Of a stretch of DNA of 43,987 nt, positions 33,060 through 39,443 are shown piece by piece. Below the pieces are notes generated by a model. It searched no databases, was not told the origin of the DNA, and saw nothing but the letters and a program-made list of their open reading frames with translations. The stretch is from an archaeon (GTDB lineage: Archaea; EX4484-52; GLR71): positions 1 through 43,987 of the forward strand of contig WTCA01000012.1 of NCBI GenBank assembly GCA_013138805.1, read 5' to 3'. A program made the position numbers and the translations under genes. The stretch's first letter is position 1, and each line of letters opens with the position of its first letter.

Positions 33060-34526
33060 TCACACCCCACCTATGCCCAGGACAGTCCTGATATAAAGCT
33101 CCCTGTCAAGGCCTGAACCTGCAATAGCCGCCATAACATCAGTCACAGGACTCTGGAACACACCAAAAGCTACACACAAGCCGGCAAGAATAACAAGCAC
33201 AAGCTTAAGATCAAGATCAAGAGATATCCTGCTGTCCCCTTTCATATTAGAGAAAAATATCATGAACATCATCTTGGAACAATATGCAAGCGTAAGGACA
33301 GAGACAAGCATTGCGGCAATGGCGCCGAGAGGAAACACTTCAAAGCCTGCTATATATATTATAAGCTTGCTTGAAAATCCGTTGAACAGCGGAAGGCCTG
33401 CAAGGGAAAGCGCACCAACACCAAAAGATGCGAGAAGAAGTGGATTGCCTGACCCCAGACCGCCCATCCTGTCAAGATTGCTTGACCTAAAATGCCTTAT
33501 CACAATATATGAAGCAGCAAAAAGAAGCATATCTATTATCACAAGATTAACCAGATGGTATAAAGCACCTGTATAGCTCCCGATACCCAACCCGAAAAGC
33601 ACATATCCGCTCTGGGATATTGCTGAATATGCCAGCAGTTTTTTGAGATTATGCGTCTGAAAAGCAAGTACCGCACCAACAACCATTGTCAGAAGCGATA
33701 ATGATATCAAAAGCCAGGACATATCAAAGCCGCCGATTGTTGCAGCAAGCCGGAATATTGTATAAAGACCTATTGTTGTCCCGCCTGCAGTGAACATAAG
33801 CCCTAAAGACAAAGGTGTATACCTTATAACAGACGGTTTCCATGCATGGAACGGTGCAGCAGCTGCTTTAAAAGAAAAGCCGCAGAGAAGAAGCCCAAGA
33901 CCTGCCAGGGAAGCTGTTGTAGAGGAATTAGTCAGGCTTCTGCTTATGTCGGCCATGTTTAGTGTGCCTAAAGACCCATAGATGAACGCTATGCCTAAAA
34001 GTATGAGCGATGTAGCGAAACTGCCCATAATAAGAAACCTCACGGAGCTCGCAACAGAGCCCATCCTACCGGAATATGACACAAGAGCATATGACGCAAT
34101 GCTCAGTATTTCAAAAAAGACAAAAAGGTTGAAGATGTCACCAGTCATAGATACTCCTGCAAGCCCCAAGAACAGAAGCAGAAAAAGAGCATAAAATTCC
34201 TTTTTATCATCATGTATTTCCCTCCTGCTTATGACAAGAGCAGCAAGCGCGGTGACAGCGACAAGAGACATTACAAGATAGCCAACCAAGTCAACAGCAA
34301 AGCAGATGCCCAACGGAGGGTTCCATCCAAGCATATTATATGTAATAATCTTGCTGGACATGATTTCAGAAAAGTCCATAAGCAAAAGACCCAAAGATAT
34401 GAACACGGCCCAGAAAGAGATTCTCCAGTGATAATCTTTATGCCTGCCGCTTGTAATAGTTATACCAAGAACAGCAGCAAGCAACACAGGTACGATTAAA
34501 TTGAAATACGCCATATAAAAACACAT
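33060..34526 (-). CDS. mrpD: Mrp-type antiporter ND4/ND5-like subunit (MrpD)
   Basis: A 488-aa membrane protein with about 14 hydrophobic segments, the proton-conducting subunit type shared by Mrp antiporters, complex I and group 4 hydrogenases. Key ionisable residues are present: E139 in FVFFEILSI, K220 and the AAAAPFHAWKP helix (H227, K230), plus a later Lys in LKKLLAYSAISQSGY. It would move H+ or Na+ across the membrane with the other Mrp subunits. A TATTTTATATAG box about 25 bp upstream fits a leaderless start at 34526 or at the ATG at 34514. It is separated from mrpC by a gene on the opposite strand. Confidence 0.88.
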   Translation of the reverse strand: MCFYMAYFNLIVPVLLAAVLGITITSGRHKDYHWRISFWAVFISLGLLLMDFSEIMSSKIITYNMLGWNPPLGICFAVDLVGYLVMSLVAVTALAALVISRREIHDDKKEFYALFLLLFLGLAGVSMTGDIFNLFVFFEILSIASYALVSYSGRMGSVASSVRFLIMGSFATSLILLGIAFIYGSLGTLNMADISRSLTNSSTTASLAGLGLLLCGFSFKAAAAPFHAWKPSVIRYTPLSLGLMFTAGGTTIGLYTIFRLAATIGGFDMSWLLISLSLLTMVVGAVLAFQTHNLKKLLAYSAISQSGYVLFGLGIGSYTGALYHLVNLVIIDMLLFAASYIVIRHFRSSNLDRMGGLGSGNPLLLASFGVGALSLAGLPLFNGFSSKLIIYIAGFEVFPLGAIAAMLVSVLTLAYCSKMMFMIFFSNMKGDSRISLDLDLKLVLVILAGLCVAFGVFQSPVTDVMAAIAGSGLDRELYIRTVLGIGGV

Positions 34527-34617
34527 CTTAAAGGCAACATACTATATCTATATAAAATTTGTCATATGTGATTAATATACTTATTTATATATCTAATACT
34601 CAAATAATGTTTGTCCT

Positions 34618-35115
34618 ATGGACAAGGTAATACATATGCATGTACTTGCGCATATCCCTGTAAATTTCACAATAGGCTACCTGTTTTATATGATAATAGG
34701 ACAGCCGGCAGACATCGGTTTTCTTCTCGCGATATCTGCTGCAGGATTTCTAATAGACATAGATCATGCAATAACTTTCATGATGGCAAAAAGGTCAATT
34801 CACCCGACAAAATTCTACAGGTGGCTTAGATACCAGCTGGACCATTCAGTACCAAGTTTCTACATATGCCACACTTTTGAGTTCATAGCATTCCTTTACA
34901 TACTCTCGTTCAGTTACTCATTCGCCTACGCCATGTTTATAGGATACGCACTTCACCTGGCAACAGATATGGCGGTGAACATAAGAAAAGACATCATCAA
35001 AGGCGAATCATCTATAAACAGGTTCAAATACTGGTCAGGAACTTATTTCATGCTCTACCCAGGATACAATTACATAAAAGTGAAGCTTTCAGGCCCGATA
35101 ACTACTTCTGTTTGA
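34618..35115 (+). CDS. membrane-bound metal-dependent hydrolase-like protein (DUF457/YdjM type)
   Basis: A 165-aa membrane protein with four hydrophobic segments and the histidine/aspartate pattern of the YdjM/DUF457 group: H8 and H12 near the N-terminus, a LIDIDHA motif around 45-51, QLDHSVPSFYICHTFEF, and GYALHLATD. These residues probably bind metal at the membrane face. The substrate is unknown; lipid-like phosphates have been suggested for related families. The gene is inserted, on the opposite strand, between mrpC and mrpD. A TTATTTATATATC promoter lies about 30 bp upstream. Confidence 0.8.
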   Translation: MDKVIHMHVLAHIPVNFTIGYLFYMIIGQPADIGFLLAISAAGFLIDIDHAITFMMAKRSIHPTKFYRWLRYQLDHSVPSFYICHTFEFIAFLYILSFSYSFAYAMFIGYALHLATDMAVNIRKDIIKGESSINRFKYWSGTYFMLYPGYNYIKVKLSGPITTSV

Positions 35116-35125
35116 TAATCAAGCC

Positions 35126-35464
35126 TCACACTTTCTTTGAAGAATTTAAAGTACCGGACATCTTATGATACTTGATTATCAGAGCAAGGGCAAGAGCAAT
35201 CACAGAAAGTTCAATAACAATAGATGTCAGGACAAGCGCCTGAGGAAGCGGATCTACAGCAGTCAATGAAAAATAAGATAAATCCATACCTTCAAGAAAA
35301 ATAGGTGCGATACCACCCGCACGATAGCCGATAGAAATCAACAGCAGATGAATCCCGTTCGTAAAAAGCCCAAGCCCTATGACTTTCTTGATAAGATTTT
35401 CCTTGACAATAATCGCATATGTGCCTATAGCCACAAGCACGATAGCAGTTACATATATTATCAT
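35126..35464 (-). CDS. mrpC: Mrp antiporter subunit C (NuoK-like)
   Basis: A 112-aa NuoK-like subunit with three transmembrane helices. VIGLGLFTNGIHLLLISIGY and DPLPQALVLTSIVIELSVIALALAL are the MrpC/MnhC signatures. An AAGGAGG ribosome site fixes the ATG at 35464 (MIIYVTAIV); a longer upstream frame would lie inside mrpB. The start overlaps the mrpB stop by four bases. Confidence 0.92.
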   Translation of the reverse strand: MIIYVTAIVLVAIGTYAIIVKENLIKKVIGLGLFTNGIHLLLISIGYRAGGIAPIFLEGMDLSYFSLTAVDPLPQALVLTSIVIELSVIALALALIIKYHKMSGTLNSSKKV

Positions 35465-35868
35465 CTCCAGGCCTCCTTCTCTAAAGAATATATTATAAGT
35501 ATTATCGCTGTCGCGACCATGAGCATACCTGCGATGTTCATCATTGCAGTGAACCCACCGCTCCACAGGCGAAAGATTGTCTGGCTTTCTATGAGCGCAT
35601 CCCTAAAATGATAGCCAAGTTTTGAAAGTACAAGCAGCATCAAAAGACCTGAAACGCTTTTGATGTCTATAAGCTTATGAATTATAAGTTTATGTTCAAG
35701 ATCCTTCTTTTCAAAAGATATCACAAGCAGTGCAAAGGCAGAACCTATTATCGCACCTGCAGCAAAGCCTCCGCCCGGAGTAAGATGCCCATGAAGCGCT
35801 ATGTAAAGCCCGTAGATAAGTATAAACGGAAAGACAATTTTTGTAGTCTCTTTTATTATCGTATCCAT
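35461..35868 (-). CDS. mrpB: Mrp antiporter subunit B (MnhB domain)
   Basis: A 135-aa MnhB-type membrane subunit with four hydrophobic segments and the signature GLYIALHGHLTPGGGFAAG, found in all MrpB/MnhB proteins. I start at the ATG at 35868. An in-frame GTG three codons earlier overlaps the upstream stop. It is translationally coupled to the genes on both sides. Confidence 0.92.
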   Translation of the reverse strand: MDTIIKETTKIVFPFILIYGLYIALHGHLTPGGGFAAGAIIGSAFALLVISFEKKDLEHKLIIHKLIDIKSVSGLLMLLVLSKLGYHFRDALIESQTIFRLWSGGFTAMMNIAGMLMVATAIILIIYSLEKEAWR

Positions 35869-35873
35869 AATAC

Positions 35874-36191
35874 TCACTTTTTCCTGCCGGATATCTTTTT
35901 TCTGCTGTTTTTTATCTTCCTCGCCACAAGTGCGACACCGATAGCTCCTGTGAAAAATACGACCTCTTCACCAAGCGTATCAAATCCACGAAAATCCCAG
36001 ACAATAGAATTGACAATGTTTGTAGAGCCTGTCAGGCCTGATCCGTTATGAAGATACTGTTCCGCTACAACGCTTCCGCTGATATCTCCATAAGTATGGA
36101 TGCCACCTACACCATAGATAAGCATTACTGTAAAGATAAATACAAGAAGTAATGTTGCAGCCTCAATTTTACTCTTGTACAGACTATTCAT
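35874..36191 (-). CDS. MbhE-like Mrp/hydrogenase membrane subunit
   Basis: A 105-aa protein with two transmembrane segments around a conserved NIVNSIVWDFRGFDTLGEEVVFFTGAIGV segment, matching the MbhE domain of archaeal Mrp-like modules (the C-terminal part of bacterial MrpA). The C-terminus is strongly basic (KIKNSRKK). Its separate existence is normal for archaeal Mrp systems. It overlaps the MbhD-like gene by four bases. Confidence 0.85.
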   Translation of the reverse strand: MNSLYKSKIEAATLLLVFIFTVMLIYGVGGIHTYGDISGSVVAEQYLHNGSGLTGSTNIVNSIVWDFRGFDTLGEEVVFFTGAIGVALVARKIKNSRKKISGRKK

Positions 36192-36421
36192 CTCTCAAAC
36201 CTCTCCGTCTTATGTATAGCTATAAGAAAAAGAAATGTCATAAGCCCTGCACAGATAGCTGCCTGAGTAAGGGCTATGTCCGGTGCTTTGAGAAGGAAAA
36301 AGATAACAGCAATCACAAGATCAAGTCCTGCAAGCACAATGACAGAATGCACAAGATCCTTCTGCTCAACAGCTATAAATGACAGGGTTATACCAAGCGC
36401 AAGAAGTATCTCAAGCAGCAT
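36188..36421 (-). CDS. MbhD-like (DUF4040) Mrp membrane subunit
   Basis: A 77-aa three-helix membrane protein. LKAPDIALTQAAICAGLMTFLFL is the DUF4040/MbhD signature, corresponding to part of the MrpA C-terminal region in bacteria. The ATG at 36421 follows an AGGAGG ribosome site seven bases upstream. It lies between mrpG and the MbhE-like gene. Confidence 0.88.
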   Translation of the reverse strand: MLLEILLALGITLSFIAVEQKDLVHSVIVLAGLDLVIAVIFFLLKAPDIALTQAAICAGLMTFLFLIAIHKTERFER

Positions 36422-36464
36422 CAAAAAGCCTCCTGTATCTTCTGTATAACTTTTCCGCACATTG

Positions 36465-36767
36465 TCATCTTAAATCATCCTTCTTGAGATTTTCAGGCAC
36501 AATGCCTGTCCTGTGTGCCGCATTGACAATAACATGGCTGCTCACCGGATTTGTCAGGGCAAAAAATATGAAAATAAGGATTGCCTTGACTGAATACACA
36601 GTGCCGAAATACTCAAAAGCAACAACAACCAGCGCAAGCATGACACCTCCTACACTTATCATTGTCGCCGCATGTATACGCGTATAGCAGTCTTTGAACC
36701 TTAACATGCCTATCGCACCCAGGAGCGCTGAGATTGAAGAGATCAGCAGAAGTATATCTGTTATCAT
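36465..36767 (-). CDS. mrpG: Mrp antiporter subunit G
   Basis: A 100-aa MnhG-type subunit with three transmembrane helices. Conserved sequence: LLGAIGMLRFKDCYTRIHAATM and FFALTNPVSSHVIVNAAHRTG. Its start overlaps the mrpF stop (ATGA), so the E-F-G genes are translationally coupled. Confidence 0.93.
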   Translation of the reverse strand: MITDILLLISSISALLGAIGMLRFKDCYTRIHAATMISVGGVMLALVVVAFEYFGTVYSVKAILIFIFFALTNPVSSHVIVNAAHRTGIVPENLKKDDLR

Positions 36768-37021
36768 CTACGGACCCCCTCTTTCCTGATCCATTTTGAG
36801 ACAGCCACAGTTCCGATAAAAAGCAGCAGCGCAAATGTAAGAGCGATATCAAGATATATAGGTGTAGAATTCTCGATTGCAAGATAAATAAAAAACAATA
36901 TCATCATCTGGCCTAAAACATCAAGCGCGATAAGCCTGTCAGCAAAAGTATGCCCAAGTATGAACCTCACAATCACTATCACAGCAGCCAGAAAGAATAT
37001 TTGCCATGCAAGAGCTATCAT
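36764..37021 (-). CDS. mrpF: Mrp antiporter subunit F
   Basis: An 85-aa MnhF/MrpF subunit with three hydrophobic helices and the typical FADRLIALDVLGQMMI motif followed by a short basic end. It overlaps mrpE upstream and mrpG downstream by four bases each. Confidence 0.92.
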   Translation of the reverse strand: MIALAWQIFFLAAVIVIVRFILGHTFADRLIALDVLGQMMILFFIYLAIENSTPIYLDIALTFALLLFIGTVAVSKWIRKEGVRR

Positions 37022-37491
37022 AAGAACACCTTCCTCCCATACTTTGTAAACAGGAAATCAATCTTTTCATCCTTTCTGTAATTGAGGCAATGAACATACA
37101 GATTTTTATCAATAGCTACAGAAACTGTACCGGGAGTAAGAGTTATGGAATTAGCAAGCAATGCACGCCCAAGTTCGCTTTTGAAATCAGGCAATATCTT
37201 GACTATTGCAGGATTTGTCTTTCCTGTGATGACCGACCTTGCCACAGACATATGCGATCTTACTTCAGCAAAAAGAAAAACAATAGTATATACCAAAAAA
37301 TTGGCAGCCTTGAAAGGATTAAAAAAATAATCTGCAATGCTAAAGTCAGTAAAATTATGGATAATATATGTCACAACCAGAGACATTACAAGACCTGCTG
37401 CAAGTTCCTGAAAATTCAGGCTATATGTGAAAAGAATCCATGATATATAAAGCAGAAGGAATGTGCCTGCCTGCCTGAAAAGATTGCCCAT
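37018..37491 (-). CDS. mrpE: Mrp antiporter subunit E
   Basis: A 157-aa MnhE-type subunit with two or three N-terminal transmembrane helices and a cytoplasmic tail containing ELGRALLANSITLTPGTVSV, a strong MnhE signature. It is the first gene of the mrp operon. A BRE/TATA-like AAACCTTTATG at about 37513-37524 predicts a start site close to the ATG, i.e. a leaderless message. Confidence 0.92.
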   Translation of the reverse strand: MGNLFRQAGTFLLLYISWILFTYSLNFQELAAGLVMSLVVTYIIHNFTDFSIADYFFNPFKAANFLVYTIVFLFAEVRSHMSVARSVITGKTNPAIVKILPDFKSELGRALLANSITLTPGTVSVAIDKNLYVHCLNYRKDEKIDFLFTKYGRKVFL

Positions 37492-37512
37492 ATATTATAG
37501 ATACCTATAGGG

Positions 37513-37530
37513 ATACATAAAGGTTTCTGT
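37513..37530 (-). promoter_or_regulatory. BRE/TATA promoter of the mrp operon
   Basis: Minus-strand ACAGAAACCTTTATGT, with the TATA part centred about 28 bp upstream of the mrpE ATG. The same 14-base string (ACAGAAACCTTTAT) occurs at 29545-29558, where no gene starts at the right distance. The divergent gene at 37557 begins only 27 bp from this box. Confidence 0.45.
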
Positions 37531-37556
37531 GACATGAGAAAAGATATTTATAATCA

Positions 37557-38075
37557 ATGAGGAGTAACTTTTATAAATATCAAAATTTTAAGTTATCTAG
37601 TGATCTGGTGGCAGCAAATCCCTTAAATGAAAAATATACATACATGAAAGAATTCTATAAAAAAGGTAAAACATATCATTCCAACCTGTTTGAGATAACA
37701 GGCACAGTTGACTCTGAAGAGATATCATTTGTTTTTGACCCAAGGCAGAAGACTGTGGACGTTCTTGGAAAACCTGCACTGATAGAGATGAATGATCTAA
37801 GATTTAAATCAAGAAGCGAAATCCTTTTAGATTATAATATACAATCACAACTTCAAAAAGGAGAAGAAATGACTTACATAGATTGGTTAAACAAAGCCAT
37901 TTATGAACAAATATCAAACAATCCAAAAATAACTGATGAAAAAGTGCGCAAAGAAGCACTTTCCATTGTAGATCCTAAAAAAACTTTAAAAATAACCGAA
38001 ATCGCTGAATATTCTTTTGGACAGATGGTCCGTGACCTGAATAAAATATATGCTATTGCAAAAAATAATTCTTAG
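37557..38075 (+). CDS. hypothetical protein, 172 aa
   Basis: A soluble protein without membrane segments or recognised domains. The central part has beta character (TYHSNLFEITGTVDSEEISFVFDPRQKTVDVLG). The C-terminal part is helical and charged (ADWLNKAIYEQ-like helix at 110-130 and EYSFGQMVRDLNKIY). AT-rich composition and position next to the repeat-bounded segment suggest accessory DNA. There is no ribosome site; the start may be leaderless. Confidence 0.55.
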   Translation: MRSNFYKYQNFKLSSDLVAANPLNEKYTYMKEFYKKGKTYHSNLFEITGTVDSEEISFVFDPRQKTVDVLGKPALIEMNDLRFKSRSEILLDYNIQSQLQKGEEMTYIDWLNKAIYEQISNNPKITDEKVRKEALSIVDPKKTLKITEIAEYSFGQMVRDLNKIYAIAKNNS

Positions 38076-38274
38076 CATAGTAACTAAACAAAAAAATGAA
38101 AAAGCACTACTGGTTTCAAAGCCAACATAGCACTCTCCCTGTATCCAAACCCGAAAAGGTCGCTCCGGAACTGATCCGGAAAATATAGTAAAAAACAGAC
38201 ATAAAATGCCTATCATAACATTATTGCAACCAATATATATGCTTTTATGTTGTTGAAGATATATATCTAAAAAG

Positions 38275-38555
38275 ATAAACAAAATCAGTAGCTGAAACGG
38301 GCTTCAGAAAGCCCATAAAAATGCTAAGCATTTTTAGGGTCCCAAAAATTTATGATTTTTTAGGACCCGGATATCTATATGACATTCAATCCTACGGATT
38401 GAAGTCATGATTTAATCTTAGGCTACCTACTTAAAGGTCATGATTTAATTGATACTGTTCGCTTTGCTCAGGTGGCAAGCTTATTGAATTTACAAAGTAG
38501 CAAGTTGCGGAGTATTAAATCCAGAAAGAAATAAACAAAATCAGTAGCTGAAACG
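38275..38555. repeat. hairpin-rich element bounded by an exact 25-bp direct repeat
   Basis: An identical 25-base string stands at 38275-38299 and 38531-38555. The right copy contains the stop and last four codons of the minus-strand gene at 38541, so the left copy is a duplicated gene end. Between them lie 231 bp without a gene but with strong palindromes: GGGCTT/AAGCCC at 38299-38314, AAAAATGC/GCATTTTT at 38317-38335, GGGTCC...GGACCC at 38337-38368, and TTCAATCC/GGATTGAA at 38385-38403. A 13-bp direct repeat (GTCATGATTTAAT) follows at 38404 and 38437. The preceding 38076-38274 is AT-rich with one CCGGA/TCCGG hairpin near 38165 and no gene. Confidence 0.7.
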
Positions 38556-39245
38556 CCTTGTCCTTTCTTCTATAACATTAAGTTTCTCAATGACAAGACT
38601 TACCTGATTCTTAAGGTCTCGAAGCTCTAAAGCCATATCGATTCTCTGCGACACAGGCATGTCTGATTGCTGTTGCATATCAACGACAGGCTTTGGTGCC
38701 TGCGGATATTCAGGGATTGCCTGACCCACAGAAGGCATAGGAGAAGGTGCCTGTGTCTGGGCAGGAATCTGGCCTGTATTCATATCAAAGCCGCCAGGGG
38801 CAGAAACTGGCTGGGACGCAGGATAAGCAGCCTGTGCCATCACAGTCTGGTCCTGCGGATACGCCTGATCTGTCGGGTTGGCTCCAGGAGACATAGAAGG
38901 ATCTAAAGCTAAGGCCGCTTGCTGATTTATCTGATTAGGCTGACCGGGAGGCACAGTTCCTGCATCAAGAGGATTTTGTAGCGGCAGGCCGGAAATATCA
39001 GGTTGCGGAGCATCCCTTATTATCTGGTTCGGCGGATTTAAAGGTGTTTTAGAATCAAGGTTCAGGCCGCCTGAATAGTCAGCATTGACACTTGCCTCAA
39101 GCACTTTTGATGATTTTGACATGTCTGCGGTCGGGTCAGACTTCAGGATATCATCTATATTGCTGCTAGCACCGTCAAGATTTGCCCCGGAAGCCGCATG
39201 CTTTTTACCTGTCACGGTTTCTTTAAGTTTAGAAAATAAATCCAT
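38541..39245 (-). CDS. Pro/Gln-rich disordered protein with N-terminal amphipathic helix and C-terminal coiled coil
   Basis: A 234-aa protein: N-terminal amphipathic helix MDLFSKLKETVTGKK, a long low-complexity region rich in Pro, Gln, Ala and Asn (about 30-185), then a C-terminal coiled coil (RIDMALELRDLKNQVSLVIEKLNVIEERTRR). The plan is the same as in the protein at 16860. A GTGAT ribosome site sets the ATG at 39245. A peripheral membrane scaffold is an inference. The final codons are part of the 25-bp repeat that bounds the element downstream. Confidence 0.7.
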   Translation of the reverse strand: MDLFSKLKETVTGKKHAASGANLDGASSNIDDILKSDPTADMSKSSKVLEASVNADYSGGLNLDSKTPLNPPNQIIRDAPQPDISGLPLQNPLDAGTVPPGQPNQINQQAALALDPSMSPGANPTDQAYPQDQTVMAQAAYPASQPVSAPGGFDMNTGQIPAQTQAPSPMPSVGQAIPEYPQAPKPVVDMQQQSDMPVSQRIDMALELRDLKNQVSLVIEKLNVIEERTRRFSY

Positions 39246-39443
39246 AATAATCACGCAAAAATAAGTTCATATAGGAATTGCATATACAATATTATTGACA
39301 AGGACTATATAAATAATTACTGTAAAGTCTTTAGCTATCAAAACTTACAATAAAAAAATAAGGTTTATAAAGATATATATGAATTAACTATATATCTAAT
39401 TATATCTAATTCACATTGAAATGGATTGACTTATGGTGTTTTT

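Follow-up and report, generated by a model that had tools for sequence, protein, structure and literature searches.

A dispersed family of hairpin-rich, protein-less insertions in Aenigmatarchaeota and its possible link to T-arm tRNA introns

Introduction

The small mobile elements of DPANN archaea are, to our knowledge, poorly catalogued. The spread of archaeal tRNA introns has been inferred, and its carrier is unclear. Among the short palindromic elements of prokaryotes, those derived from REP/RAYT and IS200/IS605 insert without target duplication. Here we consider a stretch of 43,987 nucleotides from an uncultured Aenigmatarchaeota archaeon (contig WTCA01000012.1 of assembly GCA_013138805.1), which we call the window. 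At 38275-38555, the window contains a non-coding insert between two copies of a 25-bp sequence, and several described systems resemble this arrangement in part.

Like MITEs, the element is small, non-coding, dispersed, mostly intergenic, and flanked by a target duplication, but it has no terminal inverted repeats, its duplication is variable or absent among copies, and no parent transposon was found among the copies read. The lack of terminal inverted repeats also distinguishes it from casposon-derived elements. IS1549 and IS1634 share with it the long target duplications of variable length (direct repeats of 8-514 bp have been reported; PMC2266710), but both are complete insertion sequences, with a DDE transposase as well as inverted ends. 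Eukaryotic SINEs, which move by target-primed reverse transcription, resemble it in their structured head, often A-rich tail, and variable duplications (including none). In contrast to SINEs, the element is archaeal, no reverse transcriptase was found for it, its short copies lose the tail, and it contains nested extra hairpins. The palindromes derived from REP/RAYT and IS200/IS605 are, like our element, short, intergenic, and present in many copies (PMC3733652); unlike them, the window element has a 25-bp duplication, though several copies of its family have none.

The remaining comparison is with tRNA introns. Such introns are known to have spread in the Thermoproteales, and in Caldiarchaeum a mobile element has been connected with their spread (PMC4033280, PMC3293823). 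As Fujishima et al. 2010 are cited in PMC4033280, transposed, near-identical introns occupy several tRNA genes of Thermoproteales, and, going by that account, the T-arm introns of Aenigmatarchaeota described below are similar in being near-identical in several tRNA genes. The window element, unlike an intron, is not inside a tRNA gene and has duplicated gene ends on either side; splicing would therefore not be required.

Results

The element at 38275-38555

The 25-bp direct repeat lies at 38275-38299 and 38531-38555 (no strand assigned), which is where the initial annotation had placed it, and the two copies are identical. They are 256 bp apart from start to start and enclose 231 bp. The repeat is far beyond chance. 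Nowhere else in the 44-kb window is an exact sequence of more than 14 bp repeated within 500 bp, and in 20 simulated windows with the same dinucleotide make-up, the longest exact repeat was 11-14 bp.

The element sits between two convergent genes. One of these is a minus-strand gene of 237 amino acids (38541-39254), which has no Pfam family and has an 83% identical orthologue in the closest relative that we compared. The right copy of the repeat is joined to this gene and includes its end at 38541, and the gene is intact. The left copy is a spare that contains the gene's last codons, its stop codon, and another 10 bp. No tRNA gene was found in the window, so the element is at the end of a protein-coding gene. 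Just upstream of the element (33060-37491), there is a run of antiporter-like membrane genes, of the Mnh/Mrp type by appearance.

The inserted sequence itself (38300-38530, plus strand) is oriented with its head hairpin first, and all of the following features are on the same strand. The head hairpin, H1 (38299-38314), reads GGGCTTCAGAAAGCCC and has the core GGCTTCAGAAAGCC. Between H1 and a linker is a nested double hairpin (38315-38368), which is also present in the copy on contig C43; similar hairpins were found in other families of the order. Next is hairpin H2 (38379-38408; ATGAC-A-TTCAATCC...GGATTGAAGTCAT), whose pairs covary among copies and whose core appears to be common to T-arm tRNA introns. 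A 13-bp repeat, GTCATGATTTAAT, forms the 3' tail of the H2 module (38404-38416) and occurs again at 38437-38449. By comparison with a copy in the closest relative (contig C183), the second occurrence is probably what is left of another H2 module. The element ends with tail module B (38454-38534; ...CTCAGGTGGCAAGCTT...GGAGTATTAAATCCAGAAAGAAATAA), which is common to other long copies and whose last 4 bases overlap the right repeat.

The element strand folds at -79 kcal/mol, with a z score of -5.6 relative to shuffled sequences (-5.3 for the reverse strand), and the 231-bp interior has no open reading frame of at least 80 amino acids. The original description of the interior as strong hairpins with a 13-bp repeat and no open frame therefore stands. 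The element had no match in Rfam at the gathering score or with a credible E-value.

An empty site in the closest relative

The closest relative compared (G002) belongs to the same genus and appears to be Candidatus Aenigmatarchaeota archaeon RS_11_38. Window positions 37004-38299 and 38526-39400 align onto one unbroken stretch of its genome and overlap there by 30 bases. The orthologous site lacks the insert and has the 25 bp only once, and the flanks are 84-88% identical. Given this empty site and the other copies of the insert in the genome under study, the simplest reading is that 231 bp were inserted with a 25-bp target duplication. We infer the movement of the element from these filled and empty sites, and on that comparison we conclude that 38275-38555 is a real, recent insertion of what appears to be a non-autonomous mobile element.

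The initial annotation had named an old local duplication as the competing possibility. In the form of a tandem duplication with a terminator-like intergenic region, this is scarcely tenable. It would account for hairpins between convergent genes, and tandem duplication does seem to explain a 51-bp repeat on another contig of this genome (C15). We had considered that repeat as a target duplication and set it aside, as the adjoining element sequence is repeated too; it looks like a tandem duplication. At the window locus, this explanation was rejected because of the clean empty site in the closest relative and the homologous copies dispersed elsewhere in the genome.

A dispersed family with a conserved head

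The interior of the element matches eight other places in the same genome, including the copy on contig C43, which is 96% identical over 121 nt. We counted copies in this genome by pattern and model searches. The H1 core GGCTTCAGAAAGCC has 12 exact copies, and it has 31 matches with up to two mismatches, versus 8 for a reversed control pattern. We also built a covariance model of H1, the linker, and H2 from nine copies (model R1). In this model, both partners vary in three of the pairs, and pairing is kept in every cell.

R1 identified 18 places in this genome (G000) and 10 in the closest relative. Among the other genomes of the genus, it identified 13 places in G004, six in G005, three in G001, and three in G003, and some of the places in G004 and in this genome are tRNA introns. 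R1 found no place in G006; relatives of the family are thus present in five of the six other genomes of the genus (G001-G006). Outside the genus, at an E-value threshold of 0.001, only G018 and G033 had matches, and 25 of the 27 other genomes of the order were negative.

The copies are mosaic. They contain H1, optionally H2, and extra nested hairpins, and the long copies add tail module B, ending in GGRGTATTRAAYCCANNAAGRAATAA. Several of the insertions differ between this genome and its closest relative. Collections of viral, plasmid, and phage sequences had no match to the element, and none of the copies that we read was a long copy with an open reading frame or an autonomous relative. In the open literature on mobile elements of Aenigmatarchaeota or DPANN archaea, we recognised none of this kind. 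In the best reading, the element belongs to an undescribed family of non-autonomous, structured mobile elements.

Separately, we observed that the intergenic DNA of several families of the order repeatedly contains nested AT-rich double hairpins that have GGGTCCC/GGACC junctions. They also occur inside the window element (38315-38368) and the C43 copy. These are possibly a second family of mobile hairpins.

Target duplications are variable and often rebuild the end of a gene

Three insertions in this genome have an empty site in the closest relative and a clear duplication: 25 bp for the window element (contig C34), 23 bp on C7, and 12 bp on C43. Conversely, contig C151 of the closest relative has a 19-bp stretch from the 3' part of tRNA-Val in duplicate, where G000, G003, and G005 have a single copy. 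On contig C11, there is a 12-bp duplication at the 3' end of a tRNA-Glu gene. Finally, G033 and G018, which are from another family of the order, share an insert (G033 stretch 1178-1328; G018 stretch 954-1104) that is flanked by a 33-bp duplication. Those 33 bp encode the last residues and the stop codon of a 286-amino-acid membrane protein, so the layout is like that of the window. The G033 and G018 insertions probably reflect one event, which leaves six independent events among the seven clear duplications. Few duplications were measured; for three of them the comparison was with an empty site in the sister genome, and for another it was with further genomes of the genus.

Other inserts that we checked against empty sites had no clear duplication. 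These are on C27 (5 bp at most), on C51 (no duplication and a small change of the target), and on contigs C35 and C183 of the closest relative, whose sites are empty in this genome. Overall, the length of the duplication is not constant (12, 12, 19, 23, 25, or 33 bp, or none). As a side observation, the copy on contig C68 of this genome (stretch 1-320) is flanked by a near-exact duplication of 116 bp, which is far longer than the others, and no empty site was found for it.

Most of the long duplications reconstitute a 3' end, either of a gene or of a tRNA. Duplicated 3' ends of this kind resemble the att sites of integrases, and the initial annotation had offered site-specific integration alongside insertion with target duplication. 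The empty site bears out target duplication. A remnant of site-specific integration by a tyrosine integrase, with the 25 bp as att sites at the 3' end of a gene, is very unlikely: the duplicated sequence is different at each site, with no shared attachment core carried by the element; several copies have no duplication; and a separate attP would be needed for each insertion. We rejected the att-site model because each copy has a different repeat.

We found no terminal inverted repeats at seven copies (the best end-to-end match was 4-7 of 15 positions, no better than in shuffled sequences). This counts against a MITE derived from a DNA transposon whose duplications are long and variable (for example, one of the IS1634 family), as does the lack of an autonomous relative among the copies read. 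The non-coding, dispersed copies and the target duplications would fit a MITE, and there is the literature precedent for long variable duplications, but overall we consider this explanation unlikely.

In another scenario, no dedicated enzyme is involved: hairpin DNA is captured as filler at staggered double-strand breaks, and fill-in yields duplicates of any length. Such patch repair would accommodate duplications of none to 33 bp (as well as the repeats of 51 and 116 bp) and the modular, mosaic interiors with their nested hairpins. However, the position of the H1 end is constant within about 10 nt across copies, which random capture would not give, and two insertions in tRNA genes stop at the same position in the T loop, which would be unexpected under random capture. 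We view patch repair as improbable. Taken together, the variable stagger, the lack of inverted ends, and the constant head argue against both a classical MITE and random filler.

Insertion through a staggered cut

Our preferred explanation, to which we assign a probability of roughly 0.78, is that the window contains a recent copy of a non-autonomous, protein-less element of stacked hairpins that entered by way of a staggered cut. In this model, an enzyme acting in trans would nick both strands, at positions whose spacing varies. The element, as a hairpin-bearing RNA or as single-stranded DNA, would be copied or joined into the gap, and fill-in of the staggered ends would create the target duplication. 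In all seven of the clear duplications, H1 joins the cut inside the gene and the tail end joins the intergenic cut. If a nick falls inside a gene, then survivors would be expected only where the duplication rebuilds the end of the gene. Selection of this kind best explains why the spare copy is a gene end: only the insertions that rebuild the gene would survive.

A specific form of this explanation is a SINE-like retroelement: an RNA with the H1 head and an often A-rich 3' tail would be reverse-transcribed at a nick in AT-rich DNA, with the second nick a variable distance away. This is possible but doubtful. It is consistent with duplications that vary down to none, with the small change of target on C51, with the lack of inverted ends, and with the maintenance of the structure by covariation. 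The placement of the tail on the intergenic side and of H1 on the gene-internal side also fits. Furthermore, tails ending in AAGAAATAA or similar adjoin A-rich or ATAA-containing targets at C34, C27, C51, and C7. On the other hand, the tails in G033 and on C11 are not A-rich, and we dropped the A-rich 3' tail as a general feature. Also, copies made by target-primed reverse transcription are usually truncated at the 5' end, whereas it is the tail module, and not the head, that is missing from the short copies.

The search for an enzyme also bears on this form. At an E-value threshold of 0.01, we found no RVT_1 domain in nine genomes of the order (six from the genus and three others), in searches that did detect the controls. 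Y1 transposases were absent from this genome and from its closest relative and, among the genomes searched, were present only in G003; the incompleteness of the genus genomes (68-93% complete) bears on the absences of both RVT_1 and Y1. No mobilising enzyme was identified among the families searched (RVT_1 and Y1). The absence of Y1 from G000 and G002 is a further difference from REP/RAYT and IS200/IS605-derived palindromes, and we rejected those systems for this reason, though contig C25 of G003 does have a TnpA/TnpB-like (IS200/IS605) element.

A core possibly shared with T-arm tRNA introns

Nine of 27 R1 places, at about six independent sites, are within 250 bp of a tRNA gene as identified by ARAGORN, versus a rough chance expectation of 2% (our own estimate, which takes about 46 tRNA genes per 1.2 Mb and ignores intergenic bias). 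Some R1 matches in G004 and in this genome correspond to tRNA genes that are broken in the T loop after TTC: one for Arg, two for Lys, one for Glu, and one for Tyr. We built a second covariance model, R2, on T-arm tRNA introns. R2 adds tRNA-Gly to the genes with an interrupted T loop, and it has places of the T-arm type in all seven genomes of the genus. The tRNA inserts are 77-97% alike in the pairwise alignments that we made. In every interrupted tRNA, taking out the insert can give back a T loop of 7 nt, so these inserts are most simply explained as T-arm introns.

Across the genus, the T loops of tRNA genes for Arg, Lys, Glu, Tyr, and Gly are occupied by near-identical introns, each about 110-130 nt long. 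ARAGORN also identified tRNA-Glu without a T-loop intron in G001 and G003. This looks like a large-scale spread of tRNA introns in Aenigmatarchaeota. Another observation is that on contig C140 of the closest relative (stretch 1590-1645), a small nested hairpin, about 48 nt long, breaks a tRNA-Leu gene or pseudogene.

The two models detect each other's targets. R1 matches T-arm introns with E-values of 7.7e-7 to 2.6e-5. These values are rough, and the shared core is short. R2 matches the free-standing elements on C68 (2.9e-6), C43 (7.5e-6), and C27 (1.9e-4) and the window element (4.0e-4), and these E-values are rough as well. Moreover, the duplications on C7 and on C151 of the closest relative both start between TTC and AAA in the T loop of the tRNA, as the introns do. 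From these matches in the hairpin-linker-hairpin core and the common cut point, we tentatively suggest that the free-standing elements and the T-arm introns probably share ancestry.

A stronger proposal, which we offer as speculative and think somewhat unlikely to be right, is that the free-standing elements and the T-arm introns represent alternative outcomes of the landing of a single mobile structured element, which cuts the T loop between TTC and AAA. After the cut, the element could stay in place as an intron that needs splicing. Alternatively, a staggered cut would duplicate the 3' end of the tRNA, and splicing would not be needed.

Discussion

The family is notable for its lack of inverted ends, for the lack of an identified enzyme, and for duplications that rebuild the gene that was hit. 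It is the possible identity with mobile tRNA introns that would make the element important. The paired filled and empty sites make the link to introns testable in sequence data. If the link to T-arm introns is true, then archaeal tRNA introns would gain a specific origin that can be tested, with a visible mobile source.
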